A stretch of DNA of 64,000 bases from the NCBI RefSeq assembly GCF_002843315.1, contig NZ_MVDD01000002.1:248001-312000 (forward strand). The letters run 5' to 3'. The notes beneath the pieces are model-generated. The model was not told the origin of the DNA. It worked only from the letters and a program-made list of their open reading frames with translations, and did no database searches. Both the position numbers and the translations under genes were made by a program. Shown one piece after another: positions 12,343 to 41,877 of this stretch. Positions within the stretch are counted from its first letter, which is position 1. Each line of letters begins with the position of its first letter. Origin of the DNA: Labilibaculum filiforme. GTDB lineage: Bacteria > Bacteroidota > Bacteroidia > Bacteroidales > Marinifilaceae.

Positions 12343-12376
12343 CAAAAAAAACCTCCGACCAATGGCCAGAGGTTTC
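12343..12376 (-). terminator. Terminator of the hydrogenase operon
   Basis: AAACCTC ... GAGGTTT stem with a partly paired inner part (GACC/GGCC), followed on the minus strand by a U-run. It lies 18 bp past the hydC stop codon. Confidence 0.82.
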
Positions 12377-12393
12377 CAATTCAGAATTCGATC

Positions 12394-12873
12394 CTATTTC
12401 TGATATTCTTTAATGATATCAGCTACGTCGCCAGCAGAAACACGTCCGTAAACACGTTCACCAACGGTTACCACAGGTGCTAATCCACAAGCACCCACGC
12501 AACGCAAACAGCTAATAGAAAACTTACCATCTTCGGTAGTTTCCCCAACAGGCACATTCAGCTGACGTTTGAATTCTTCCAAAACTTTCTCGGCACCTCG
12601 AACATAGCAAGCAGTTCCCATACAAATAGAGATTGGGAATTCGCCTTTTGGCACCATAGAGAAAAAAGAATAGAAAGTTACAACGCCATAAACATGTGCA
12701 ACCGAAACATTTAATTCTCGAGCAATAGTTTCCTGAACTTCAGCCGGAAGATAACCAAAGGTTTCCTGAGCCTTATGAAGCACATTAATCAACTCGCTTC
12801 CTTTATTATCGAATGATTTGCAAATCTCCACAAGTTTCTCCACTTTGGATTTTGCTAATTTAATTTTTGCCAT
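12394..12873 (-). CDS. hydC: Hydrogenase subunit HydC, NuoE-like [2Fe-2S] protein
   Basis: Thioredoxin-fold [2Fe-2S] subunit of a HydABC/Hnd-type NAD-linked [FeFe] hydrogenase. The 159-aa length is standard. The N-terminal helical part (KVEKLVEICKSF ... GYLPAEVQETIAREL) is NuoE-like, and the cluster ligands are CMGTACYVRGA (C-x4-C) and CLRCVGACGLAP (with C-x3-C). Last gene of the operon, 112 bp after hydA; the gap contains a CCCGATA palindrome and simple repeats, so its expression may differ from hydA. Confidence 0.93.
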   Translation of the reverse strand: MAKIKLAKSKVEKLVEICKSFDNKGSELINVLHKAQETFGYLPAEVQETIARELNVSVAHVYGVVTFYSFFSMVPKGEFPISICMGTACYVRGAEKVLEEFKRQLNVPVGETTEDGKFSISCLRCVGACGLAPVVTVGERVYGRVSAGDVADIIKEYQK

Positions 12874-12943
12874 AATATCTTAAGATTTTAGATGTGAGAC
12901 TTAAGATTTGAGATTCTGAATTTCTCCAGCATCTCATTTCTCA

Positions 12944-12961
12944 TCCCGATAGTTATCGGGA
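12944..12961. repeat. TCCCGATA palindrome in the hydA-hydC gap
   Basis: TCCCGATA-gt-TATCGGGA, 8-bp arms. Just upstream (12881-12940) lie degenerate repeats of the type AGATTTGAGA/AGATGTGAGA. Small palindromes of this sort are frequent intergenic repeats in Bacteroidota genomes (family knowledge, not verified here). Confidence 0.6.
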
Positions 12962-12985
12962 CTATAAACTCATTTCTATTTAAAA

Positions 12986-14758
12986 CTATTCAATCTCAAT
13001 ATCATTACTCTTATCGAAATAGTGAGTGTGCAATAATTTATGAGACAATTCACCACATGGTTTTCCCAAGAACTCTTCATACAATTTAATAATATATGGA
13101 TTTTCGTGAGACTTACGAATTGCTTTCCCTGCATCTTCGCGATAAAGAGCCGCTGCGCGTTTCTTCAATATTGAAGAATCGCCATGATGTAATGGCTGAC
13201 CACCGCCACCAATGCAACCTCCAGGACAAGCCATAATTTCAATAGCATGATAATGCGATTTTCCATCACGAATATCTTCCAAAAGTTTACGAGCATTTCC
13301 TAAACCATGAGCAATACCTATATTTAAAGGTAGTCCATCAAAATCGACGGTTGCACTTCGAATACCTTCCATCCCGCGCAAGGCTTCAAAATCAACTTTT
13401 TCAAGTGTTTTGCCGGTATACACCTCGTATGCTGTACGAGCTGCGGCTTCAATAACACCACCGGTTGTACCAAAAATTACACCAGCACCAGTAGATTCTC
13501 CCATTGGATTATCAAATTCTTCATCGGGAAGCGTTTTAAAATCCATATTAGCCTGTTTAATCAGGTTAGCCAATTCACGGGTAGTAATAGAATAATTTAC
13601 ATCCGGATCGCCATCTACTTTAAACTCGTCGCGCTGACATTCGTATTTCTTTGCCAAGCAAGGCATAATTGAAACTACGATCATATCCTCCCGTTTAATT
13701 CCCATTTCTTTTGCTAGATAATTCTTAGCTATAGGACCAAACATTTGTTGCGGAGAACGTGCCGTTGATGGAATCTCTTTCATATCCGGAAAGTGGTGCT
13801 CAAAGAAGTTCACCCAGGCAGGACAACAAGAAGTTAAAATTGGTAATTTAACATTTTTATCTCCATCCAAGTGTTTCTTTAAACGATCCAATAACTCTGT
13901 GCCCTCTTCCATAATGGTTAGGTCGGCAGCAAAATCGGTATCAAAAACACTATCAAAACCTAATTGACGTAGTGCTGCAACCATTTTTCCAGTAACTAAA
14001 GTTCCTGGTTCCATTCCAAACTCTTCGCCTAAAGCAGCACGAACAGCAGGAGCTGTTTGAACAACAACAGTTTTCTTAGCATCAGCAAGATCTCTAATTA
14101 ATTGGTTAGTGTGATCTTTTTCGGTAAGAGCTCCCGTAGGACAAACCGCAACACATTGTCCGCAGTAAGTACAAACTGACTTCTCTAAATCCATTTCAAA
14201 AGCTGGTGCAACCACAGACTGAAAACCTCTATTTACAGCAGAAAGAGCTCCAACTGTTTGCACTTCGTTACACATGGTTTCGCATCTGCGACACATAATA
14301 CATTTGTCCATGTCGCGAATAATCGATGGAGAATAGTCTACCTTATAAGTAGATTGTTCGCCTTTATAGTGCAACTCACGAACGCCTAATTGTTGTGCCA
14401 TTGACTGAAGATCGCAGTTCCCTGATTTCGCACACACCAAACAATCAAATGGGTGATCTGAAAGCATTAACTCCATAACGGTTTTTCGTGCGTTTAATAC
14501 TCTAATGTTATGAGTATTAATCACCATGCCATCTCCACATTTTGTATTGCAAGACGGTGCCAAATTACGACGGCCTTCTACCTCTACAACACAAATTCGG
14601 CATCCACCAGGATTGTGTTCAATTCCCATATCGCCAAGATTCATATAGCAAAGAGTTGGAATATCAATTCCGATTCCTTTGGCGGCTTCTAAAATAGTAG
14701 TTCCCTGCGGTACTTCTACTTGTTTTTTATCAATGATTAATTTGATCATTTTTTCCAT
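12986..14758 (-). CDS. hydA: [FeFe] hydrogenase catalytic subunit HydA
   Basis: Catalytic subunit that reduces protons to H2 or oxidises H2, here as part of an NADH/ferredoxin-linked complex. The 590 residues carry a [2Fe-2S] domain (Cys37, 53, 56, 70), a His-ligated [4Fe-4S] site (His102, Cys106, 109, 115), two further [4Fe-4S] clusters (CIMCRRCETMC from 153; CTYCGQCVAVC from 196) and the H-domain with all three signatures: TSCCPAWV (309-316), MPCLAKKYE and MACPGGCIGGGGQP. The proton-relay Cys311 is present. The start is fixed by AAGGAGGA 7 nt upstream. Order and composition match group A3 bifurcating hydrogenases; reaction direction is inference. Confidence 0.97.
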   Translation of the reverse strand: MEKMIKLIIDKKQVEVPQGTTILEAAKGIGIDIPTLCYMNLGDMGIEHNPGGCRICVVEVEGRRNLAPSCNTKCGDGMVINTHNIRVLNARKTVMELMLSDHPFDCLVCAKSGNCDLQSMAQQLGVRELHYKGEQSTYKVDYSPSIIRDMDKCIMCRRCETMCNEVQTVGALSAVNRGFQSVVAPAFEMDLEKSVCTYCGQCVAVCPTGALTEKDHTNQLIRDLADAKKTVVVQTAPAVRAALGEEFGMEPGTLVTGKMVAALRQLGFDSVFDTDFAADLTIMEEGTELLDRLKKHLDGDKNVKLPILTSCCPAWVNFFEHHFPDMKEIPSTARSPQQMFGPIAKNYLAKEMGIKREDMIVVSIMPCLAKKYECQRDEFKVDGDPDVNYSITTRELANLIKQANMDFKTLPDEEFDNPMGESTGAGVIFGTTGGVIEAAARTAYEVYTGKTLEKVDFEALRGMEGIRSATVDFDGLPLNIGIAHGLGNARKLLEDIRDGKSHYHAIEIMACPGGCIGGGGQPLHHGDSSILKKRAAALYREDAGKAIRKSHENPYIIKLYEEFLGKPCGELSHKLLHTHYFDKSNDIEIE

Positions 14759-14765
14759 ATTAAGA

Positions 14766-14773
14766 TCCTCCTT
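14766..14773 (-). promoter_or_regulatory. Strong Shine-Dalgarno site of hydA
   Basis: AAGGAGGA on the minus strand, 7 nt before the hydA ATG and overlapping the hydB stop codon. Near-perfect SD sites are uncommon in Bacteroidota; most genes here have none. It suggests high and coupled translation. Confidence 0.8.
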
Positions 14774-16565
14774 ACTGTATGCTTATTGCATTAAATTTAC
14801 ACTTCTCCATACATGCACCACATTTAATACATTTTGATGTATCAATAAGGTGTGCCTCCTTACGTTCGCCTGAAATACAATCGACAGGGCAATTTCGTGC
14901 ACAAAGCGTACAACCAACACAAAGCTCCGGATCGATCACGTACTGCATTAAAGCTTTACACTGACCTGCCGGACACCTATGATCTACGATGTGAGCAAGA
15001 TATTCATCGTAAAAATTATCTAGTGTTGAAAGAACTGGATTTGGAGATGTTTGTCCTAATCCGCAAAGAGAAGTATCTTTGATAACATTACTTAAATTTC
15101 TTAATAAATCAAGATCTTCTTTGGTTCCATTACCTAAGGTAATTTTATCTAATATTTCGTGAAGACGTTTGTTACCAACACGACATGGAGTACATTTACC
15201 ACAAGACTCCTCTACCGTAAATTCTAAATAGAACTTAGCCATTGATACCATACAATCGTCCTCATCCATAACAATCATACCTCCCGATCCCATCATGGAA
15301 CCAACAGCAAGTAGATTATCAAAATCGATAGGAGTATCTAAATGTTTTTCGGTTAAACATCCTCCAGAAGGGCCACCGGTTTGAACAGCTTTAAATTTCT
15401 TGCCATCTTTTATGCCACCACCAATTTCGTAAATTACTTCGCGAAGAGTAGTTCCCATAGGCACCTCAATTAAACCCACATTGTTAATTTTACCTGCCAA
15501 TGCGAATACTTTAGTACCTTTCGATTTTTCGCTTCCAATTTTATTAAACCAACTTGCTCCTTTATTAATGATAACAGGAATATTGGCAAATGTTTCAACA
15601 TTATTTACGTTAGTAGGTTTTCCATTATATCCCGATTCAGCAGGAAAAGGAGGTTTTACGGTAGGTTCACCACGAAGACCTTCCATGGAATGAATCAGAG
15701 CTGTTTCTTCACCACAAACAAATGCTCCTGCACCATAACGCATTTCGACATCGAAATTAAATCCCGAGCCTAAAATATCATTGCCTAACAATCCGTATTC
15801 ACGAGCTTGCTTAATCGCAACCTTTAATCGGGTAATTGCTAAAGGATACTCGGCACGAATATAAATTAACCCTTTATCGGCTCCCATTGTGTAAGCACAA
15901 ATGGCCATTGCTTCTAAAACAGAATGTGGATCTCCTTCTAAAATAGAACGATCCATAAATGCTCCAGGATCTCCCTCATCAGCATTACAAACTACATATT
16001 TTTGGTCGGCTATATTTTTGGCAGCAAATTCCCATTTTAAACCAGTTGGGAATCCTCCTCCTCCTCGTCCTCGTAGTCCCGATTCCTTAATCTCGTCGAT
16101 TACTGTTTGAGGAGTCATTTCTGCCAAACATTTTCCAAGAGCGGCATAACCATCTCTAGCAATATATTCATCTAAATTTTCAGGATTAATAAATCCACAA
16201 TTCCGAAGAGCAATTCGAATTTGCTTTTTATAAAATCCCATGTGTTTGGAATCACTAATCACTTCTTTATTTTCAGGATCAACGTAAAGCAATCTCATCA
16301 CTTTACGTCCCTTAACGATATGCTCTTCGATTAGCTCTTCCGCGTCTTCGGGTTTCACTTCTACATAGAAAGTATTATCCGGAAGAATTTTAACAATAGG
16401 ACCTTTTTCACAAAATCCGAAGCAACCAGTCATCACAACCTGTACTTCATCATCAAGTCCTTTGGCTTTAATTGCTTCTTGCAAATTATTTTGAATAGCC
16501 TCACTTGCAGAAGCCCGACAACCGGTTCCTCCACAAATAAGAATATGCATTTTATACTTTTCCAT
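14772..16565 (-). CDS. hydB: Hydrogenase subunit HydB, NuoF-like NADH-binding
   Basis: Flavin subunit that exchanges electrons with NAD(H) in HydABC-type hydrogenases; the proposed bifurcation site. The 597-aa chain has an N-terminal thioredoxin-like [2Fe-2S] domain (CGGTGCRAS and CFGFCEKGP), the NuoF core with the FMN/NADH loops GRGGGGFPTGLKWEFA and EGLRGEPTVKPPFPA, the N3-type cluster SCGKCTPCRVG with the later Cys in DTSLCGLG, and a C-terminal ferredoxin with CVGCTLCARNCPVDC and CIKCGACMEKC. This fused order matches HydB of bifurcating enzymes rather than NuoF of complex I. It is 13 bp upstream of hydA. Confidence 0.96.
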   Translation of the reverse strand: MEKYKMHILICGGTGCRASASEAIQNNLQEAIKAKGLDDEVQVVMTGCFGFCEKGPIVKILPDNTFYVEVKPEDAEELIEEHIVKGRKVMRLLYVDPENKEVISDSKHMGFYKKQIRIALRNCGFINPENLDEYIARDGYAALGKCLAEMTPQTVIDEIKESGLRGRGGGGFPTGLKWEFAAKNIADQKYVVCNADEGDPGAFMDRSILEGDPHSVLEAMAICAYTMGADKGLIYIRAEYPLAITRLKVAIKQAREYGLLGNDILGSGFNFDVEMRYGAGAFVCGEETALIHSMEGLRGEPTVKPPFPAESGYNGKPTNVNNVETFANIPVIINKGASWFNKIGSEKSKGTKVFALAGKINNVGLIEVPMGTTLREVIYEIGGGIKDGKKFKAVQTGGPSGGCLTEKHLDTPIDFDNLLAVGSMMGSGGMIVMDEDDCMVSMAKFYLEFTVEESCGKCTPCRVGNKRLHEILDKITLGNGTKEDLDLLRNLSNVIKDTSLCGLGQTSPNPVLSTLDNFYDEYLAHIVDHRCPAGQCKALMQYVIDPELCVGCTLCARNCPVDCISGERKEAHLIDTSKCIKCGACMEKCKFNAISIQ

Positions 16566-16585
16566 AATTGTTGTTTCGTTTAGGT

Positions 16586-16978
16586 TTAGTCTAGAGTTTT
16601 GTAGTTTACAGGTATTATTCCATCCACCAATTCACCATTTTTGATGTATTTTTCAATAATTTCGTCTGCTTTCTTAATATTTACATCGCCAAATACGATG
16701 GGTTCTTTTCCTGGAAGATGAACCTCGATTGTAGGTTCTGCATAGCAATATCCCATACAACCGGTTTGGGTAACTACGGTCCGAATTCCTCTTTTTGCTG
16801 TTTCCTCAATAAGGAATTCCATCACCTCTTTGGCTCCGGAGGCAATTCCGCAAGTAGCCATTGCAACTTTAATCTGTACAAGGCCTTCTGGATCGTTACT
16901 TTTCTCCCTAAGATCCATTTTCGACTGAAGCGCGTCTTTCATTCTCTTCAGATCTGCAAGGGATTTAACTTTTGCCAT
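16586..16978 (-). CDS. HndB-like (2Fe-2S) ferredoxin-domain protein
   Basis: A 130-aa thioredoxin-like ferredoxin. The first motif is ATCGIASGAKEV, with one Cys, and the second is TQTGCMGYCYAEP. Three cysteines are therefore placed where four would bind a typical [2Fe-2S] cluster; TCGIASGA is usual for the HndB-like family. It lies 20 bp before hydB and is expected to be a subunit or assembly partner of the complex. The N-terminal 35 residues are helical and charged. Whether it binds a cluster cannot be decided from sequence. Confidence 0.85.
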   Translation of the reverse strand: MAKVKSLADLKRMKDALQSKMDLREKSNDPEGLVQIKVAMATCGIASGAKEVMEFLIEETAKRGIRTVVTQTGCMGYCYAEPTIEVHLPGKEPIVFGDVNIKKADEIIEKYIKNGELVDGIIPVNYKTLD

Positions 16979-17004
16979 AATCTCAAATTATTAAAGGTTA
17001 AAAT

Positions 17005-17544
17005 TTATATTATTGTGTTTAGGTTCTCGTTTATTAGTTCTTTCAAATACTTCATAATATTAGGATCTGTTACGGAAACATCTTCTAATACTTCTTTTAC
17101 CTCTTTCGTATCAAAAATATATTCCCCCTTTGCTGTGCAATGCCGATATACAAAATCCATGTTTGGATTTGCACTCACCAACAATACCATTACACCTGCA
17201 ATATCACCAATCACCGGTCTGTCTATATTTTTATGAGAAAACAAAACCTCTAGTACTGTTCCCACTCCCTCTTTCGAATGTATTTCCAATTTCCCTCCGG
17301 TTTGCTCGGCACTCTGTTTTAACAAAGACAAACCTAAGCCTACTTTTCGAGTAGTTCTGGTCGTAAAAAAAGGATCTGTTACCTTCTTAACTACTTCTTC
17401 CGACATTCCACATCCATCATCTTTTATCGAAATAGAATAGATATCTTTCTCCAAATCCTCTTTAATTTCCAATTCGACATTAGAGGCTTCCGCCCGAACC
17501 GAATTCTGGATAATATCCATAATATGTAAAGACAAGTCTTTCAT
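17005..17544 (-). CDS. Histidine-kinase-like ATPase without dimerisation domain
   Basis: A 179-aa protein that is little more than a GHKL ATP-binding domain: N-box IIQNSVRAEA, G1 box DDGCGMSEEV, F-box DPFFTTR and G2 box KVGLGLSLLK. No HisKA (DHp) helix pair or receiver precedes it, so it cannot be a standard sensor kinase. A C-terminal extension of about 60 residues (from GVMVLLVSANPNMDF) is unassigned. Such stand-alone ATPases occur beside hydrogenase operons in anaerobes. It may phosphorylate or sequester a partner (inference). Confidence 0.85.
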   Translation of the reverse strand: MKDLSLHIMDIIQNSVRAEASNVELEIKEDLEKDIYSISIKDDGCGMSEEVVKKVTDPFFTTRTTRKVGLGLSLLKQSAEQTGGKLEIHSKEGVGTVLEVLFSHKNIDRPVIGDIAGVMVLLVSANPNMDFVYRHCTAKGEYIFDTKEVKEVLEDVSVTDPNIMKYLKELINENLNTII

Positions 17545-17591
17545 TTTAATTTTAGGTTAAAGCTTAAAGGTATTAGCTAAAAGCATTATTC

Positions 17592-17960
17592 TCATTTAGC
17601 TTTATAAATTTCAGCTTTAAGTTTATTAATAAACCCACTAATCATTTTCTCTTCTTCTAAAATCATAGACAACAATTTACTGTCTTCTTGATTCGAATAT
17701 TTTAATTCTTGAACAAATAAAAACTGTATCTCTAATTCAAATAATGATCCCAATGCTATTTCTAAAAACCTGACAAAATCTTTATCACTTCCTCTACTAC
17801 AACCTTCCGCTATATTTGAAGGAATCGAAACTGCAGCCCTGCATATTTGACTTCTCAATCCATATTTTTCATTCTCAGGAAGCAATTCTACCAATCGATA
17901 AATCCTTTTAAGTATTGATATTCCATTTTGCCAAACATTTAACTTCCTGAAATTTCTCAT
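17592..17960 (-). CDS. Four-helix-bundle protein (S23/IVP family) inside the operon
   Basis: A 122-aa protein with the S23 signature: LNVWQNGISILKRIYRL, LPENEKYGLRSQICRAAVSIPSNIAEG and a later amphipathic pair. The family forms four-helix bundles and is often found as inserts in 23S rRNA intervening sequences or between genes. Here it splits the hydrogenase operon between the PHP gene and the ATPase gene. It is flanked on both sides by degenerate GCTAAAAGC-type text (17575-17590 and 17970-17990). Function unknown; it may be a passenger rather than an operon member. Confidence 0.9.
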   Translation of the reverse strand: MRNFRKLNVWQNGISILKRIYRLVELLPENEKYGLRSQICRAAVSIPSNIAEGCSRGSDKDFVRFLEIALGSLFELEIQFLFVQELKYSNQEDSKLLSMILEEEKMISGFINKLKAEIYKAK

Positions 17961-18006
17961 TCTTTTTTTTGCTAAAAGCCAAACGCCAATTGCTGCTTTA
18001 AACCTT

Positions 18007-18759
18007 TTACTTTAATCTCTCTTCCAATTCAACTATTCGTCCGTCTTCCCCTTTAAGTGCCTTTTTAATTTCCGAAAAACTTGCTTCCTTCATTGTAAAC
18101 TTAGTACACACATTCCCAATATTCTCAATATAATGAGCATCTGAACTTTGAATGAAAGTATATCCTTTCAGGTACTTATTTTTACTTAAAAATTCTTCTT
18201 TTGTGATATGCATTGAAATTTCCAAAGCATCCACATTTAAATCTGTCGGCAAAAAACCTAGCTGACTTATAATACTATTTTGTGTTTTATTAATATGAGC
18301 CGGAATAAACAAACCTTTCAGTTCATGAACTTTCTGTTCTATCTCATTAATTCCCTGACTCAATCCTGATATCAATAAATTATCTATTTCCTGTACTATC
18401 TCCTCCTCTTCGTTCACCACAACCTGATAACCAAAGTATTTGGTGTCATTTGGTATTTTAGGCAAATATCTGTCCAAGTAAATTTGAAACTCAGAAAGCA
18501 AGTCTTCCGTTTCAAAAAAGCATAAGCAATGCACCTCTTCTTTAGTAGTTACCTCTGCTCCCATTAGCACCATAATTCCCTCTTTTTGTGCCAATTGCTT
18601 AATTAAAGTGGCATGCAAAGTTGAATTATGATCGCTTATCCCCAATATGTCAAGTCCACGTTCTTTTGCTGCCCGAACAATATTTACAGGACTCATCTCT
18701 AAATCTCCGCAAGGAGATAAAACCGTATGTGTATGTAAATCTGCTCGAAAAACCTTCAT
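18007..18759 (-). CDS. PHP-domain phosphoesterase-like protein
   Basis: A 250-aa PHP-domain metalloprotein. Metal ligands are visible in FRADLHTHTVLSPCGD, ISDHNST, GAEVTTKEEVHCLC, FIPAHINK and QSSDAHY. The SPCGDLEMSP variant is characteristic of PHP proteins coded with DRTGG and Fe-hydrogenase genes in anaerobes. A phosphoesterase or nucleotide hydrolase role is expected, perhaps acting on a signal nucleotide or a phosphorylated partner (inference). It follows the DRTGG gene by 10 bp, so the two are tightly coupled. Confidence 0.88.
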   Translation of the reverse strand: MKVFRADLHTHTVLSPCGDLEMSPVNIVRAAKERGLDILGISDHNSTLHATLIKQLAQKEGIMVLMGAEVTTKEEVHCLCFFETEDLLSEFQIYLDRYLPKIPNDTKYFGYQVVVNEEEEIVQEIDNLLISGLSQGINEIEQKVHELKGLFIPAHINKTQNSIISQLGFLPTDLNVDALEISMHITKEEFLSKNKYLKGYTFIQSSDAHYIENIGNVCTKFTMKEASFSEIKKALKGEDGRIVELEERLK

Positions 18760-18769
18760 TCTATATCCT

Positions 18770-19105
18770 TTATGCTTTCAAAAGTTCAAATAATTTCCCT
18801 GATAACTCAAACGCCTCCTCTGTTGAGGAAAGAATAGGAATTCCTTCCACATTACTTTGCTTTGCCGCATCGGCTTCCGGTTCATATCCTTTTACAAGAA
18901 CAATTGCAGCTAACTCTTTTAAAGACGCTATTGCCATGATATTTTTATGAGTCTGCAAAGTCACCCAAACCTGATTTTCATCTGCATTTCCCATCACATC
19001 ACTCAATAAATCGGAGGTATATCCCCCTTCAATCTCGCGATTCAATCCTGCAGATCCACTACAAACTTTTAATCCTAATGCTTCAACTATATCCTGTACT
19101 TTCAT
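18770..19105 (-). CDS. DRTGG-domain protein (first of two)
   Basis: A 111-aa protein consisting of one DRTGG domain, with GGYTSDLLSDVMGNA, VWVTLQTHKNIMAIASL and AAIVLVKGYEPE matching the family. DRTGG domains accompany CBS pairs and kinases and are thought to bind ligands or mediate dimerisation. The start codon lies inside the first bases of a 97-bp repeat copy, which fills the whole gap to the hydrogenase-like gene upstream. A similar protein (115 aa) begins the operon. Role: likely a regulatory subunit of the sensory module (inference). Confidence 0.87.
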   Translation of the reverse strand: MKVQDIVEALGLKVCSGSAGLNREIEGGYTSDLLSDVMGNADENQVWVTLQTHKNIMAIASLKELAAIVLVKGYEPEADAAKQSNVEGIPILSSTEEAFELSGKLFELLKA

Positions 19106-19200
19106 ATGATTATAATTTCAAGTTTTTGCCATATGGAACTTACCATGCTGGGATAATCATTTCCCTGTGTGTCAAAATTGCATTGACATGGACGTTTCAT
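19103..19200 (+). repeat. 97-bp-family repeat copy inside the hydrogenase operon
   Basis: About 95 bp, same orientation as the copies at 1126-1422. It has CCATATGGAACTTACCATG, GGGATAATCATTTCCC and TGTCAA-attgca-TTGACA. It occupies essentially the whole gap between the hydrogenase-like stop codon (19205) and the DRTGG start codon (19105), overlapping the latter. Confidence 0.95.
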
Positions 19201-19204
19201 AATA

Positions 19205-20572
19205 TTAATGATCGTTTAAACTTTTCTTTTCAAACCTTTTTACCCCCCAGGTATTTTCTGATATATCAAATGACTCCTGTGGCGTAATTAAACCTTCCTT
19301 AGTCAACATTTTTTGTAGAAAAACACACTGCGTCATCTTTGCTTTCCCCTGCACTACGTCTTCTGCTAAAGCCTGACAACGTGGTGCGCCACATGCACCA
19401 CAATCGATACCTGGCAACACTTTTAAAATACGATTGATCTTCTCCATCTTTTTCATGGCCTCCATCATATCTGTATCAAGACTTAAAATAGATCGAGGTT
19501 CAATATTCTTGATGGAAATATTTCCCAATAGGTAAGTGCGATACTTTTCCACTTCTTTCTCTTCCAGAATAATTGGTTTATTTCGATGATACCAATCTGC
19601 TCTTTTTCGTAATCTTTCTATTGCTAAAAATCTGTTTTCGGTAGTTAAAACTCCACCAGCACAAGAATGATCACATGCCCGCAACTCCAAAAAGTCAACG
19701 TCGGTAATTTCCTCATTCTCCAACTTCTCGAGTACTTCAATTACATTATGAATTTCATCGATTGCCAAGCATCTGCCAGCATATTGTGAAGCTTCCCCAT
19801 TTGTTAATGTCCAGCCAATACTTCGCCGCGACATGTGTTTATTTAATTCGTATTTACTTCCTGAAGTTTTGTTCTGTTTGATACTTAGTAAAACCTTATT
19901 GTAGATGAAGTCCATATTAATAACACCATCAATAAAAGATTTATCCTCCCCAACAGGACTTTTTACAGCAGCAATTTTTGCAGCACATGGTGTAACGTAG
20001 AAAATTCCAATTTCATCATCTGTAAACCCTTCATCTTTAAGTTTCTTACGATAAAATAAAGCGGAAATATCAATTACAGGTTTTAAATGAATGATGTGTT
20101 CGACCAAAGCTGGAAACTTCACCTGAATTAAGCGAACGATTGCGGGACAGAAGCTAGAAATGAACGGACGTTCCTGATGATGTTTATTCATGTATGTATT
20201 AGTAGCCTCGGTAAGAATATCGACCGTTTCATCTACTTCGTACACATGAGTAAAGCCCAGCTCTTGTATCACAGAATATATTTGTTTTTCGGATATATCG
20301 TTAGGAAACTGCCCTAATAAAACTGTTGGTAAGAGAGCAACACGTTGCTTAAAACTGAATATTTGAGAAAAGTCATCCTGTTCGACAATAATGGCATTTA
20401 CCGGACAAGCATTTAAACATTCACCACAATCAACACAAGCATTTTTATTGATAACAGCCAAACCATTTTTAACACGAATTGCCGAAGTTGGACACACATT
20501 CATACAATGTGTGCATCCAATGCAAACCTCCTTAACAACTTTAAGTGCATGATAAAAATGAGCTTTCTCCAT
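19205..20572 (-). CDS. Putative sensory [FeFe]-hydrogenase-like protein
   Basis: A 455-aa protein with two [4Fe-4S] ferredoxin motifs (Cys17-20-23-27 and 46-49-52-56), a hydrogenase H-domain and a C-terminal four-Cys domain (Cys391, 394, 399, 416). The H-cluster ligand cysteines are kept: Cys142 (SSFCP), Cys196 (TPCAAK), Cys300 and Cys304 (RACDHSCAGG). The proton-relay Cys of TSCCP is Phe141, and the third motif has lost the GGGQP tail. No PAS domain is present. This agrees with group D putative sensory hydrogenases rather than a turnover enzyme; sensing of H2 or redox state is inference. Confidence 0.9.
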   Translation of the reverse strand: MEKAHFYHALKVVKEVCIGCTHCMNVCPTSAIRVKNGLAVINKNACVDCGECLNACPVNAIIVEQDDFSQIFSFKQRVALLPTVLLGQFPNDISEKQIYSVIQELGFTHVYEVDETVDILTEATNTYMNKHHQERPFISSFCPAIVRLIQVKFPALVEHIIHLKPVIDISALFYRKKLKDEGFTDDEIGIFYVTPCAAKIAAVKSPVGEDKSFIDGVINMDFIYNKVLLSIKQNKTSGSKYELNKHMSRRSIGWTLTNGEASQYAGRCLAIDEIHNVIEVLEKLENEEITDVDFLELRACDHSCAGGVLTTENRFLAIERLRKRADWYHRNKPIILEEKEVEKYRTYLLGNISIKNIEPRSILSLDTDMMEAMKKMEKINRILKVLPGIDCGACGAPRCQALAEDVVQGKAKMTQCVFLQKMLTKEGLITPQESFDISENTWGVKRFEKKSLNDH

Positions 20573-20579
20573 TCTTCAA

Positions 20580-20999
20580 TTATTTCAAATAGTTAACAAT
20601 CTCTAATTGAGTTCCCACATTAATGGTACTGCTTATATTCATCCGATCGGAATTCTTTTTAATATTAGGCAATCCCATACCTGCACCAAAGCCCATTTCG
20701 CGAACTTCTGGTGTCGCTGTAGAAAAACCTATTTGCATTGCCATATCGATATCAGGAATTCCTGGTCCTTTATCTTCTATCCGAACTACAATTTTATCCG
20801 GAAATATTTCAACATTCATATTCCCCTCAAAAGCGTGTGCGACCACATTCACTTCTGCCTCGTACAATGAAACAACGGTTCGTTTAATAATTTTTGGATC
20901 GACATTTAATTGCTTTAATATTTTTTTCACTTCGCTAGAGGCAGTTCCTGCCTTAGAAAAATTTCCCCCTTCAATAACAAATGTAAATTTCATTCCCAT
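20580..20999 (-). CDS. RsbW-like anti-sigma/serine kinase ATPase
   Basis: A 139-aa GHKL ATPase of the anti-sigma regulatory factor type. N-box EAEVNVVAHAFEG, G1 box IEDKGPGIPD and G2 box GFGAGMGLPNIKKNSD are intact, and length and layout match RsbW/SpoIIAB. No sigma factor or anti-anti-sigma (STAS) gene lies beside it. It abuts the DRTGG gene upstream (next base after that stop) and precedes the hydrogenase-like gene by 7 bp, so the three are translationally linked. Confidence 0.88.
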   Translation of the reverse strand: MGMKFTFVIEGGNFSKAGTASSEVKKILKQLNVDPKIIKRTVVSLYEAEVNVVAHAFEGNMNVEIFPDKIVVRIEDKGPGIPDIDMAMQIGFSTATPEVREMGFGAGMGLPNIKKNSDRMNISSTINVGTQLEIVNYLK

Positions 21000-21347
21000 C
21001 TAATATACTGGTTCTAAACCCATTTCATACAAAACCGCACATGCCTTAAACATAGAATAACTACATTCTATTAGGGTTATATTATTTTCGCAAGCCAGTT
21101 CTTTCATTTCCTGCGAAACCTTCTTATCCCGAACAAATAAGATAAAAGAAATATCTGACATTTCCGATGTTCTTATCGTTTGAAGATTGTTTAGCCCGGT
21201 GACTAACAGAAGATTATCTGTATCTAATGTCAAAACGTCACTCATCAAATCCGATGCAAATCCGAAATCTATATCCTGATTTAAACCATTTTTTCCACAA
21301 ATAACTTTTGCATTAAGTTTATCAACTACATCCACTACTTTCACCAT
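21000..21347 (-). CDS. DRTGG-domain protein (second), first gene of operon
   Basis: A 115-aa DRTGG protein: LNAKVICGKNGLNQDIDFG, FASDLMSDVLTLDTDN and LLLVTGLNNLQTIRTSEM align with the paralogue at 18770, but it has lost the TLQTH segment. It opens the 12-gene operon. Upstream lies a 330-bp region shared with a divergent universal-stress gene, containing an 11-bp inverted repeat. Confidence 0.85.
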   Translation of the reverse strand: MVKVVDVVDKLNAKVICGKNGLNQDIDFGFASDLMSDVLTLDTDNLLLVTGLNNLQTIRTSEMSDISFILFVRDKKVSQEMKELACENNITLIECSYSMFKACAVLYEMGLEPVY

Positions 21348-21358
21348 ATCGCAGTATC

Positions 21359-21497
21359 AACTTATGTTTATCAATTAATCATTTACAATGGGACTAAGAT
21401 AAGTAATTGAGTAGGATTAATAAATGATATCTAATGGAATAGCGACAAAATAATAAAATACATATTTAATCTAAATAACTCAGTAAAAACATAAGTT
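21359..21497. promoter_or_regulatory. Candidate operator: paired 11-bp inverted repeat
   Basis: AACTTATGTTT at 21359-21369 and AAACATAAGTT at 21487-21497 are exact complements, 117 bp apart, framing the region upstream of the hydrogenase operon. The left arm is 12 bp before the DRTGG start. The rest of the stretch to the USP start codon (21675) is AT-rich leader with no other gene. Regulator unknown. Confidence 0.45.
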
Positions 21498-21674
21498 ATT
21501 CTGATGTCTTACATTTATAGCTATTCATTTTACCATAAATACATCCTCTTTTTTATGTCAATATTTTCTAAAAAAACTCTTCTTCTCTTAAGAATAAAAC
21601 GAACAGAAATTTTTTCTTTATATTCGCAGGTAAGCAAATGCCGACAAACAAATACTTATTTTTTTCTTTATTCA

Positions 21675-22487
21675 ATGAGTCTTAAAAAACAACATATACT
21701 AGTAATAATTCAAGATATTCACTATTCGGAGGTAGCGATAAGGCACGCTTTTAGCTTGGCAAAGTTTTTTAAATCGGAGGTTGCGTTTGGCTACTATCCT
21801 TCCAAAAAGAATCAAGATCTATTGCCCGCTAAGAATTTTATCGAAAAGAATAATTTGTACGCAATTCCTTACCAACTTATGATACTAAAAAATCATAAGA
21901 GTGAACCAAATCATTGTATACAAGAATTAGATGCAATATTTATTGTTACTCAATTTCGGAGAGAATCCTTGAGCTATTTCCCGAAGAATCATTCTATTTT
22001 TAAATGGATATTTGATGCAAAAATCCCATCTATTATCGTAACAGAACACACAAAAGTCGATTACGATTATAAAAATATAATTGTACCCATAAATTATAAA
22101 AAGGAAAGTAAGGAGAAAATGATATGGGCTAGCTACTTTGGGCGTTTCAATAATGCGCTTATTCATATCATTGCACCAAACGAAAAATACGAAGCATATC
22201 TTCGTACCATTAAAGCAACTCTTTTATTCACTAAAAAAATGTTTGAACAATTTTCCTTCGAATATAAAACAGTGAAGGCAAGTTGTCAAAGTAAAAATAT
22301 AAATCGGGAAGCCATTACCTATTCGAAAAGTCTTGATTCCGCTTTAATTGTACTGATATCGAATCGGGATCCTGGCTGGATTGCTTCCTATTGCGGACCA
22401 AGCGAATTAAAATGCATTCTTAAAAAAGAAGAGAATCCAATTCTATTCATTAATCCTTTAAAAGATTACTATCTACCCTGCGACTAA
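21675..22487 (+). CDS. Universal stress protein, tandem and degenerate
   Basis: A 270-aa protein of two UspA-like halves: MSLKKQHILVIIQDIHYSEVA opens the first, and YKNIIVPINYKKESKEK opens the second near residue 133. The ATP-binding G-x2-G-x9-G-S/T loop is not recognisable in either half, so it may not bind nucleotide. I take the ATG at 21675; the frame is open back to 21504, but the extra 57 residues are low-complexity and lack USP character. It is divergent from the hydrogenase operon and could share its regulation (inference). Confidence 0.75.
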   Translation: MSLKKQHILVIIQDIHYSEVAIRHAFSLAKFFKSEVAFGYYPSKKNQDLLPAKNFIEKNNLYAIPYQLMILKNHKSEPNHCIQELDAIFIVTQFRRESLSYFPKNHSIFKWIFDAKIPSIIVTEHTKVDYDYKNIIVPINYKKESKEKMIWASYFGRFNNALIHIIAPNEKYEAYLRTIKATLLFTKKMFEQFSFEYKTVKASCQSKNINREAITYSKSLDSALIVLISNRDPGWIASYCGPSELKCILKKEENPILFINPLKDYYLPCD

Positions 22488-24862: not shown

Positions 24863-25177
24863 CTAATCCTTCTTTTTATTATTTTGTTTTGTTGTTAATA
24901 TGATACTTCTAATTATTTTCAACAATTCAGACGCGTCACTTTTCATAGAAGTAAATTCATCATCTGCAATGTAATTCGTCTCTCTTAGTAATTCTAACCA
25001 GTATAAAGATTCATCTGTTTCTTTTTGCGCAATTCCCAATTTATGAATAAAATCAGCTTTACTTTCAGCATTTTGACTCTCTCCAACATTTGCTCCAATT
25101 GAAGTTCCTGAACGTAAAAGTTGTTTACTCAATACAAATTCCTTCTTTTCACTAATAAGATATTTGTATAGTTTCAC
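24863..25177 (-). CDS. Four-helix-bundle protein (S23 family), uncertain start
   Basis: A 104-aa product, with KEFVLSKQLLRSGTSIGANVGESQNAESKADFIHKLGIAQKE split over the standard S23 helices. The frame begins at GTG 25175-25177, but in-frame coding continues upstream to 25231 as IRSKSIIKEKSFRFAIRIV, the normal N-terminus of this family. No ATG/GTG/TTG exists there; the codons are ATT/ATC. Either a rare ATT/ATC start is used or the original ATG has mutated. The C-terminus is Lys-rich. Confidence 0.75.
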   Translation of the reverse strand: MKLYKYLISEKKEFVLSKQLLRSGTSIGANVGESQNAESKADFIHKLGIAQKETDESLYWLELLRETNYIADDEFTSMKSDASELLKIIRSIILTTKQNNKKKD

Positions 25178-28723: not shown

Positions 28724-28748
28724 ATGGCAAAGATAATTAGATAATATG

Positions 28749-28845
28749 AAACGTCCATGTCAAAGGTGTTTTGACACACAAGGAAATGATTATCCCAACA
28801 TGGTAAGTTCCATATGGCAACTAAAAATCAAATAATAATCATATG
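28749..28845 (-). repeat. 97-bp-family repeat copy, inverted
   Basis: On the minus strand it reads CATATGATTATTATTTG, CCATATGGAACTTACCATG, GGGATAATCATTTCC, TGTCAAA-acacc-TTTGACA and CATGGACGTTT. It is exactly 97 bp, with the central hairpin perfect. Orientation is opposite to the other four copies. Confidence 0.95.
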
Positions 28846-28952
28846 AAATCTTACTAAGCTTTCGCTGGATGAAAAAAGGAAAACAACAGCTTACTTTGGT
28901 AAAATCTACCTAGTACCAACTTCCATTTAAAAGATAAAATACTATTTAGATC

Positions 28953-41003: not shown

Positions 41004-41034
41004 TTTGCGAGGAATCAGGATTTTTCTACTTTTG
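41004..41034 (+). promoter_or_regulatory. Consensus promoter of SRP RNA
   Basis: TTTG at 41004-41007, exactly 19 bp, then TACTTTTG at 41027-41034: a full match to the Bacteroidota TTTG-N19-TAnnTTTG promoter. The RNA starts about 6 bp later. Confidence 0.9.
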
Positions 41035-41039
41035 TCCTC

Positions 41040-41136
41040 GGGTAAGCACTATGCGACCAGCTCCTATTGAATCCCCCCAGGGTCGGAAGGCAGCAAGGGT
41101 AGGTGGTCGAAGCGGTGCGACGTAGTTGCTTGCCCA
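41040..41136 (+). ncRNA. ffs: Signal recognition particle RNA (small type)
   Basis: About 96 nt. The conserved apical hairpin with CCCCCCAGGGTCGGAAGG, CAGCAAGGGTAGG is present, including the GGAA tetraloop region and the symmetric internal loop. The ends pair (GGGTAAGCA with TGCTTGCCC). A TTTTTA follows. The RNA joins Ffh in membrane targeting of nascent proteins. Confidence 0.95.
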
Positions 41137-41166
41137 CTTTTTATACTTCAATATTCGTATAAAAAT

Positions 41167-41243
41167 GCCGATATAGCTCAGTTGGTCAGAGCAGCTGATT
41201 TGTAATCAGCAGGTCGCGGGTTCGAATCCCCCTATCGGCTCCA
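41167..41243 (+). tRNA. tRNA-Thr(TGT), copy 1
   Basis: Cloverleaf with acceptor GCCGATA/TATCGGC, D-arm, anticodon stem GCTGA/TCAGC, loop TTTGTAA (anticodon TGT), T-loop GGTTCGAATCC and encoded CCA. It heads an array of five threonine tRNA genes. Confidence 0.97.
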
Positions 41244-41335
41244 AGAAAAAAATTAAAAGAAAGCTTGCGGGCTTTCTTTCGTTCTTTACAAGATTATTTG
41301 AAGGTTTATAGTAGCCCTTTAAAATAATAACAATT

Positions 41336-41412
41336 GCCGATGTAGCTCAGTTGGTCAGAGCAGCTGATTTGTAATCAGCAGGTCGCGGGTTCGAATCCCC
41401 CTATCGGCTCCA
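41336..41412 (+). tRNA. tRNA-Thr(TGT), copy 2
   Basis: Same as copy 1 except for position 7 of the acceptor (GCCGATG, giving a G-U pair). CCA encoded. 169 bp after copy 1, with a homologous spacer. Confidence 0.97.
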
Positions 41413-41503
41413 AGAAAACTTAAAAATAAGTTTTTGAGTTTTCGTTCGTTCTTTATTAAGATTATTAGAAGGTTAAAAGTACACCTTCAAAACAGTAACA
41501 ATT

Positions 41504-41580
41504 GCCGATATAGCTCAGTTGGTCAGAGCAGCTGATTTGTAATCAGCAGGTCGCGGGTTCGAATCCCCCTATCGGCTCCA
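41504..41580 (+). tRNA. tRNA-Thr(TGT), copy 3
   Basis: Identical to copy 1, CCA encoded, 168 bp after copy 2. The repeating 168-169-bp unit shows tandem duplication of gene plus spacer. Confidence 0.97.
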
Positions 41581-41617
41581 TAAAGGAAAAACACTTTCCT
41601 TTTTTAATTTTGTTACT

Positions 41618-41689
41618 GCCGTTGTAGCTCAGGGGTAGAGCGCTTCCTTGGTAAGGAAGAGGTCATGAGTTCAATTCTCATCAATGGCT
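41618..41689 (+). tRNA. tRNA-Thr(GGT)
   Basis: Cloverleaf with acceptor GCCGTTG/CAATGGC (one G-U pair), anticodon stem CTTCC/GGAAG, loop TTGGTAA (anticodon GGT), T-loop AGTTCAATTCT. CCA is not encoded. It sits between TGT copies 3 and 4. Confidence 0.95.
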
Positions 41690-41698
41690 CAGAATATT

Positions 41699-41772
41699 GC
41701 CGATATAGCTCAGTTGGTCAGAGCAGCTGATTTGTAATCAGCAGGTCGCGGGTTCGAATCCCCCTATCGGCT
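41699..41772 (+). tRNA. tRNA-Thr(TGT), copy 4
   Basis: Body identical to copies 1 and 3 but without encoded CCA; a run of T follows directly and probably ends the transcript. It is only 9 bp after tRNA-Thr(GGT). Confidence 0.97.
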
Positions 41773-41877
41773 CTTTTTTTTTACCCCCACCAACTTCATA
41801 TTTTTCGAATCAATCCGATGCGAAAATAATTTCGTATCTCTATGTTTTATTTCATGCGTTCAAAATGAATTGTATTC

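Follow-up and report, generated by a model that had tools for sequence, protein, structure and literature searches.

The stretch of DNA analysed here (64,000 nucleotides (nt) of Labilibaculum filiforme contig NZ_MVDD01000002.1, positions 248,001 to 312,000; hereafter the window) carries on its minus strand a string of 11 genes in which a putative sensory [FeFe] hydrogenase, HydS, is joined to the genes of a HydABC hydrogenase. Our reading, to which we give a probability of about 0.6, is that this Bacteroidales gene string, presumably one operon, couples a putative Group D H2-sensing hydrogenase to the bifurcating-type HydABC, that a relay of an ATPase and DRTGG proteins would tune HydABC, and that transcription would be set separately by redox. 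The pairing of a sensor with HydABC is already known, and it is ordinary in Bacteroidales, not exotic. New here are the strict adjacency of DRTGG1, a kinase-like ATPase and HydS, the loss of HydS together with a swap to formate dehydrogenase, and a Rex-type operator that co-segregates with the helix type of Rex.

The gene string was read from the listing of open reading frames (ORFs) and from Pfam and NCBIfam scans. It runs from 21347 to 12394, every gene encodes at least 111 amino acids (aa), and the order from 5' to 3' is the following.

21000–21347, minus strand: DRTGG1, stand-alone DRTGG domain, 115 aa (PF07085, 27.8 bits against a cut-off of 25.2)
20580–20999, minus strand: SpoIIAB/RsbW-like GHKL ATPase, 139 aa (HATPase_c/HATPase_c_2)
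19205–20572, minus strand: HydS, putative sensory [FeFe] hydrogenase with the Group D pattern, 455 aa (PF02906, Fer4, PF04060)
18770–19105, minus strand: DRTGG2, 111 aa (PF07085, 23.8 bits, slightly under the cut-off of 25.2)
18007–18759, minus strand: PHP-domain phosphoesterase-like protein, 250 aa (PF02811, PF13263)
17592–17960, minus strand: four-helix-bundle/23S rRNA intervening-sequence protein, optional insert (PF05635, 118.8 bits)
17005–17544, minus strand: HATPase, GHKL domain, 179 aa (PF02518, 67 bits)
16586–16978, minus strand: HndB-like thioredoxin-type [2Fe-2S] protein, 130 aa (PF01257, 22.3 bits, under the cut-off of 24.8)
14772–16565, minus strand: HydB, 597 aa (thioredoxin-like N-terminus, FMN/NADH domain, NADH_4Fe-4S, two C-terminal 4Fe-4S)
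12986–14758, minus strand: HydA, 590 aa (NCBIfam FeFe_hydrog_A6, 906.6 bits against a cut-off of 765)
12394–12873, minus strand: HydC (NuoE-like), 159 aa (PF01257, 168.5 bits)

The coordinates, strand and gene identities had been put forward in an earlier reading of this DNA (the original prediction) and agree with the ORF listing and the profile scans, which also place, as it had proposed, a presumed H2 sensor and a bifurcating-type hydrogenase within one gene string. Its count of 12 genes has to be lowered to 11, the sole possible twelfth being a 32-aa ORF (19102–19200) within an interspersed repeat, and the four-helix-bundle gene has to be added to its list. The intergenic gaps are, in gene order, 0, 7, 99, 10, 46, 47, 26, 20, 13 and 112 nt; the near-abutting starts that it described are thus found for most pairs (0–47 nt) but not for HydS–DRTGG2 (99 nt, widened by the repeat) or HydA–HydC (112 nt).

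A scan of GTDB contigs for HydS gave at least 590 pattern matches, of which at least 435 were confirmed; the best 80 of those confirmed were kept as loci, and all 80 are, to judge by their titles, from Bacteroidota. All 78 loci with more than 1 kb of upstream sequence have DRTGG1 and the kinase-like ATPase immediately 5' of HydS, which makes these two its likeliest partners. The gene-order test was restricted to loci readable over more than 1 kb upstream plus 9.5 kb downstream (26 of the 80 were set aside for contig ends). The ten core genes keep the window order in 52 of the 54 testable loci of other species, so that the arrangement is more than chance; in three of the 52 (L066, L067, L068), PHP and HATPase are separated by 0.9–3.3 kb of other sequence. 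The closest named record among the matches listed, from which records of the own genome were possibly excluded, was Labilibaculum sp. K2S (HydS 93% identical). When 40 genomes were searched (the own genome and 39 relatives), HydS orthologues were found in seven of the eight other genomes of the genus (one partial) and in 12 of the 15 other genomes of the family.

A full set in a member of the Bacteroidota had been considered notable. The set is common in Bacteroidales, as the 52 ordered loci and a published precedent (accessible text of PMC7768429) indicate, and the idea that it is unusual for Bacteroidota was rejected, the full set being widespread across Bacteroidales genomes and loci. That precedent, from 2020, is Petrimonas mucosa ING2-E5A, also of the Bacteroidales, in which a sensor-type hydrogenase gene (HydA, HydDB 'C1') lies close to hndABCD, a pairing like that of the window; it is described as a neighbourhood only, and the text accessible to us does not mention DRTGG or PHP genes. 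Group D hydrogenase genes near kinases and bifurcating hydrogenases were in print for Firmicutes in 2012 (accessible text of PMC3561251 and PMC3608648). A literature search for DRTGG together with hydrogenase found one paper that mentions each word a single time and no report of their pairing, most subscription papers being outside its coverage.

The association of HydS with its hydrogenase was examined in 129 genomes across the order, each at least 95% complete. HydS was counted at 44% identity or more, and a HydB orthologue at 72% or more over its full length (at least 77% for two truncated by contig ends). Orthologous HydB was present in 44 of the 44 HydS genomes versus 10 of the 85 others; the latter count leaves out seven matches from genomes that lack HydS, six of them missing the N-terminal domain and one 67% identical, and would rise to 17 of 85 with them. 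HydS lies within 8 kb of HydB in 32 of the 44 genomes. Two further genomes, G133 and G189, have only a divergent HydS (31–33% identity); it lies 3.0 and 0.6 kb, respectively, away from a divergent HydB (51–52% identity).

Trees of the sensor half and of the structural half were compared for the 51 of the 80 loci in which all ten genes were readable, plus the window. They are congruent (Mantel r 0.911, the highest of 999 permutations reaching 0.188), with 37 of 49 splits shared; among splits with support of at least 0.9, 31 were shared out of 39 and 44, with 15 conflicting pairs. Therefore, both halves have mostly travelled together within Bacteroidales, and no sign was seen there of the unrelated histories that would speak against the original prediction. 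Firmicutes outgroups were sought in a plasmid collection, which yielded a single useful locus, L143 of Subdoligranulum variabile. This clostridial locus holds the same ten gene families, but in two divergent strings, HydC-HATPase-HndB-HydB-HydA and DRTGG1-kinase-HydS-DRTGG2-PHP, the kinase and HydS genes of the latter being 782 nt apart, whereas Bacteroidales have a single string in which HydC is last.

HydS fits Group D, whose members are putative sensory [FeFe] hydrogenases without a PAS domain. It has an N-terminal Fer4 pair and a C-terminal iron-sulfur (FeS) domain (PF04060, residues 386–418), and a Pfam scan at E 0.01 found no PAS domain. Residues C142, C196, K199, C300 and C304, which in this family are the Cys and Lys positions of the H-cluster, are kept in 52 of 52 aligned sequences. 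At the position of the proton-transfer Cys, 50 of the 52 have Phe and 2 have Ser, and T257, E260, D272 and E296 are found in all 52. These four resemble in kind and spacing the pathway S249 (or T)/E252/D265/E289 of TamHydS from Thermoanaerobacter mathranii, the equivalence having been drawn from motif and spacing (the latter shorter by one residue ahead of D) against the accessible text of PMC10407848, in which the Group D proton-transfer pathway of TamHydS consists of Glu/Glu/Thr(Ser)/Asp residues and the proton-transfer Cys is missing. As far as that text describes it, TamHydS (Group D, M2e) likewise combines an N-terminal 4Fe-4S pair, a C-terminal FeS domain and no PAS domain; mostly Ala is reported at the Cys position of Group D enzymes, unlike the Phe, rarely Ser, of the window type. 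Group D enzymes are described as slow, with a secondary structure that shifts with H2 (accessible text of PMC10407848 and PMC13104023). The Firmicutes genes introduced above likewise have a kinase and a bifurcating hydrogenase encoded nearby (PMC3561251, PMC3608648); as far as those descriptions go, the window type differs in belonging to a string of ten genes with HydC as the last. Against PDB sequences, HydS gave partial matches only, to ferredoxin-type and catalytic hydrogenase parts.

By sequence, the structural half is predicted to belong to the electron-bifurcating family (group A3/A6). HydB matches four PDB chains over its full length, 7t2r_B (of the NiFe HydABCSL complex), 7q4v_B, 8a6t_B and 7p5h_B. 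The bifurcating HydABC of A. woodii (7q4v, 8a6t) and T. maritima (7p5h) thus resemble the window enzyme, which is known by sequence, in full-length HydB and in the domains of HydA and HydC.

The model of DRTGG1 (predicted local distance difference test score, pLDDT, 95.5) has its best PDB folds in the CBS-DRTGG region of a C. perfringens pyrophosphatase (3l2b/3l31) and in the DRTGG protein 2ioj; comparison of its sequence with PDB sequences gave nothing below E 0.4. DRTGG1 and DRTGG2 have a D-L-x-S-D-V core in common. The model of the kinase-like ATPase (pLDDT 88.1) has its best PDB folds in SpoIIAB (1l0o, 1til; template modelling (TM) score 0.86–0.87), and E47, N51, D76-x-G78-x-G80 and G103-x-G105-x-G107-x-G109 are conserved, so that the fold, as modelled, and the ATP-site motifs of the SpoIIAB/RsbW anti-sigma kinases are present in the window ATPase. 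It lies below the NCBIfam anti-sigma equivalog cut-offs (spIIAB 51.1 versus 135 bits, RsbW 25.7 versus 145 bits) and was therefore not filed as an anti-sigma factor. The PHP protein matches endonuclease Q in phmmer (E 1.8e-8) and conserves H9, H11, D43, H44, E69, H77, H155, D207 and H209. No HisKA match was found in the 179-aa HATPase by Pfam scan.

Rearranged genomes indicate which parts can stand alone. DRTGG1-kinase-HydS occurs without a following DRTGG2 in L162, L164 and L030, DRTGG2-PHP-HATPase-HndB-HydBAC is kept together in L165, and HndB-HydBAC is found by itself in, for example, L153, L172 and L174. In genome G148 (L171:6948–11950), HydS is gone, leaving a 34-nt gap, and the rest of the cassette is retained; the HydA slot between HydB and HydC is occupied by a protein of 900 aa, NuoG-like at its N-terminus, whose formate dehydrogenase alpha module scores 901.5 bits with TIGR01591 (cut-off 666). 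Because G148 lost HydS along with the FeFe HydA and kept the cassette, HydS appears to go with H2 chemistry. Relatives of this formate dehydrogenase were found at E ≤1e-250 in 11 of the 129 genomes, and none were found in viral contigs.

In many Bacteroidales other than the family of the window, the operon starts with a Rex-type operator. Motif discovery in 63 upstream regions of other species gave the palindrome ACAnTGTtAaTtaAtTAACAAa with a log-likelihood of 363, compared with 71–77 in three shuffles, which serve as the control since reversed sequence is uninformative for a palindrome. It scored 15 or more in 39 of the 63 regions, which are those from which it had been derived, and in 43 of the 78 upstream regions of related operons (L084 excluded). 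A 33-bp double site, TGTKA-N6-TMACA-N-TGTKA-N6-TMACA, is present at 30 of the 78 exactly and at 2 with one mismatch; the best in 1560 shuffles had 3 mismatches. A CRP/FNR-type site would resemble this operator, and a regulator of that type may act there instead of Rex. The operator has the same core as the published Rex consensus TTGTGAANNNNTTCACAA (accessible text of PMC6391272). A literature search for Rex with Bacteroidales or Bacteroidetes, made at the level of listings and abstract openings, found no study of these operons, most subscription papers being outside its coverage.

The half-site with its flank occurred 2–9 times per genome in six genomes picked for having it, against 0–2 for the reversed control. 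Of the 22 places, 17 were fetched, 15 at energy or redox genes and 2 elsewhere. The targets include the HydS operon, a second HydABC set, longer HydS-type and SpoIIE-type genes, glutamate dehydrogenase, V-type ATPase and a NuoG/formate-dehydrogenase-like gene (one example of most kinds was checked by Pfam or NCBIfam and the rest by eye; the V-type ATPase subunit was under the NCBIfam cut-off). In four of four genomes inspected (G066, G067, G069, G072), the site, double in two of them, heads a hydrogenase string that itself contains rex, namely HydC-HydB-HydA, a 660–673-aa protein, two response-regulator genes, rex and riboflavin kinase/FAD synthetase. In one such string the long protein is a 672-aa [FeFe] hydrogenase-HisKA-HATPase fusion (L217:13101–15116), and a kinase module is also part of the second regulator. 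Elsewhere, in two genomes, a second Rex paralogue lies about 6 kb from the HydS operon near hypA/hypB-like genes, identified by eye (L214:4366–5040, L223:14193–14828).

Rex was found in 44 of 50 genomes; of the six without it, five lack the site and one (G088) has it. The presence of rex alone was rejected as the cause of the operator: the 44 genomes have rex regardless of the site, and only the helix type co-segregates with it. With the helix QVRRD(I/L)M(L/F), the site scores 15 or more in 22 of 23 genomes (11.6 in G070) and the double site is present with at most one mismatch in 17 of the 23. With QVTKDLS, found in 20 genomes besides the own, the site scores above 15 in one (L099, 16.3) and the double site in none; a second Rex copy in G082 was left unclassified. 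The Rex of the window's genome is of the QVTKDLS type and over the NCBIfam Rex cut-off, and its neighbours are folC- and phoH-like by eye, not hydrogenases. Since the RRD/TKD split follows families, the 20 TKD genomes falling into about three by their record titles and general taxonomy, the co-segregation of RRD-type Rex and operator may reflect few evolutionary events and is suggestive of a putative regulator–site link. In other Bacteroidales families, Rex would then be the NADH input.

In the window itself, the best operator matrix score anywhere is 6.2, and the promoter region of the family carries two other conserved elements.

21457–21479, minus strand: box1, GTTATTTAGATTAAATATGTATT, conserved upstream promoter element and candidate activator site (12 family genomes)
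21393–21403, minus strand: box2, CTTATCTTAGT, probable −7-like core promoter element

Box2 is conserved as CTTATCTTAG across the 12 aligned family genomes, its final base being T or C, and was compared with TAnnTTTG, which we take to be the Bacteroidota promoter element. The box1 consensus has 1 exact match and 4 with two mismatches in the own genome, versus 2 for a reversed-pattern control, and was rejected as a genome-wide regulon motif on these near-control counts. In Odoribacteraceae-type genomes, motif discovery yielded nothing beyond an element resembling a core promoter. A divergent gene for a 327-aa protein (21504–22487, plus strand) shares the promoter region and is kept in the family; it is universal-stress-protein-like by eye and had no Pfam match at 1e-5. 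The absence of a sigma factor or DNA-binding protein, pointed out in the original prediction, holds for the 11 genes in the Pfam and NCBIfam scans. How the signal reaches RNA, which it had left open, is partly answered by the Rex-type operator for Bacteroidales outside the family of the window.

The own genome holds further hydrogenase genes. On contig C3, at about 72–78 kb (L034:6026–12387), two longer HydS-type hydrogenases of 571 and 617 aa are each followed by a SpoIIE-type phosphatase; between the two pairs is an 83-aa NuoE-like gene, and a PAS-like region was seen by eye, with no PAS profile match. A second HydABC set (contig C19, L181:7574–12533) lies downstream of a butyrate/acetate-kinase-like gene (by eye), the end of which carries a TGTTA-N6-TAACA palindrome.

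On the reading that we prefer, H2 would equilibrate with a slow H-cluster of HydS and so change the shape of HydS or the redox state of its iron-sulfur centres; the SpoIIAB-like ATPase would read this change and act on a DRTGG partner; PHP and HATPase would adjust or reset the output, and HydABC activity or expression would be tuned. We infer signal transduction from H2 through HydS and the kinase/DRTGG proteins to HydABC. Transcription of the operon would be a separate redox input, through the Rex-type operator in many other Bacteroidales and, in the family of the window, through another regulator, possibly at box1. Several observations weigh against this. The profile scans found no STAS antagonist or sigma factor among the 11 operon genes. 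Genome G190 (L175) is without HydS, has 173 nt in its place, and carries the nine other core genes with an FeFe HydA 77% identical; therefore, the kinase, DRTGG and PHP proteins either do without HydS or serve another purpose. P. distasonis has a six-gene sensor cassette with no HydBAC adjoining, and HydS is not within 8 kb of HydB in 12 of the 44 genomes, at least one of these cases (G028) being a contig break. For the transcriptional part, the own genome has no exact ACA-N-TGTKA-N6-TMACA site, 35 of the 78 relatives lack an operator scoring 15 or more, just 5 of the 31 starts of the operon taken from rearranged or other genomes (L151 excluded) have the site, and no Rex was found in G088, which has the site.

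Persistence of the cassette without HydS also bears on other explanations. DRTGG1, DRTGG2, kinase, HATPase and PHP might form a sigma-factor-free phosphorylation switch acting on HydB-HydC, with DRTGG in the place of STAS, HydS as an exchangeable H2 input and Rex as a separate NADH input; we hold this to be unlikely, yet somewhat less so since the formate dehydrogenase was found in G148. That HydS and its neighbours serve instead in activation, repair or assembly (electron feed, cluster protection) and not in signalling is, in our view, rather unlikely. HydS is never found without its HydB type (44 of 44), HATPase and HndB-like genes accompany HydABC in the clostridial relative too, and the cassette persists without HydS even with formate dehydrogenase in the HydA slot; however, ten genomes have HydB orthologues without HydS, six of them (L172, L174, L176, L177, L179, L180) have no cassette gene in the fetched stretch, to which the search was confined, and the slow rate and H2-dependent secondary structure reported for Group D (accessible text of PMC10407848, PMC13104023) fit such a role poorly.

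It is improbable that the operon is regulated by Rex and NADH only, the sensor half being a conserved bystander with a separate target. The Rex-type site does stand at the 5' end of operons in which HydS is missing (G148, G190, G162, G110), and the sensor half lies apart from HydB in the 12 genomes just mentioned, but HydS is tied to one HydB type, the half trees are congruent, and the family of the window keeps the operon intact without a Rex-type site. Classical partner switching, with the SpoIIAB-like protein as an anti-sigma kinase and sigma and STAS proteins elsewhere, possibly together with SpoIIE of the second sensory locus, seems to us improbable as well. The SpoIIAB fold (TM 0.86–0.87) and the two SpoIIE-type genes, one confirmed by Pfam, beside the two longer HydS-type genes on contig C3 agree with it. 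SpoIIAB and RsbW have a STAS antagonist and a sigma partner, whereas profile scans found neither among the 11 operon genes, the part of the genome searched for STAS, and the anti-sigma equivalog cut-off was clearly missed (51.1 versus 135 bits). We know of no Bacillus subtilis-type stress sigma factors in Bacteroidota.

The remaining features are located in or beside the gene string.

19101–19207, strand not assigned: copy of an interspersed repeat of about 107 bp, holding the 32-aa ORF at 19102–19200 (minus strand)
12347–12377, minus strand: terminator-like hairpin, 14 pairs, plus T-run, after HydC

Other copies of the repeat are in the window at 1124–1423 (three, overlapping) and 28741–28847, and on another contig (L035:6872–7070). 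The HydS–DRTGG2 gap is only 6–7 nt in L036, L039, L040 and L041, and L038 has a partial repeat match; a conserved micro-protein between HydS and DRTGG2 was rejected, the 32-aa ORF sitting in the repeat. Terminator-like sites in the whole region were no commoner than in shuffles (5 versus a mean of 5.6). The four-helix-bundle insert is found in L036, L038, L040, L041 and L044 and not in L037, L039, L042, L043, L045 or L046, and is probably no part of the sensor/hydrogenase system. A second gene of this type was seen by eye nearby (24863–25177), and L118 has one between HydB and HydA. Elsewhere in the window (41033–41773), five tandem tRNA-Thr genes lie beside a Bacteroidales small signal recognition particle (SRP) RNA.

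The accessible text of a 2026 study of Group D hydrogenases calls the identification of their interaction partners critical (PMC13104023). DRTGG1 and the SpoIIAB-like ATPase are the first partner candidates, given their strict adjacency to HydS and what is seen in split genomes and in operons without HydS. The formate-dehydrogenase version of the operon offers a natural control in which H2 chemistry is absent. The Rex-type operator offers a testable transcriptional link for many hydrogenase operons of Bacteroidales, in which control of H2 matters in fermentation.

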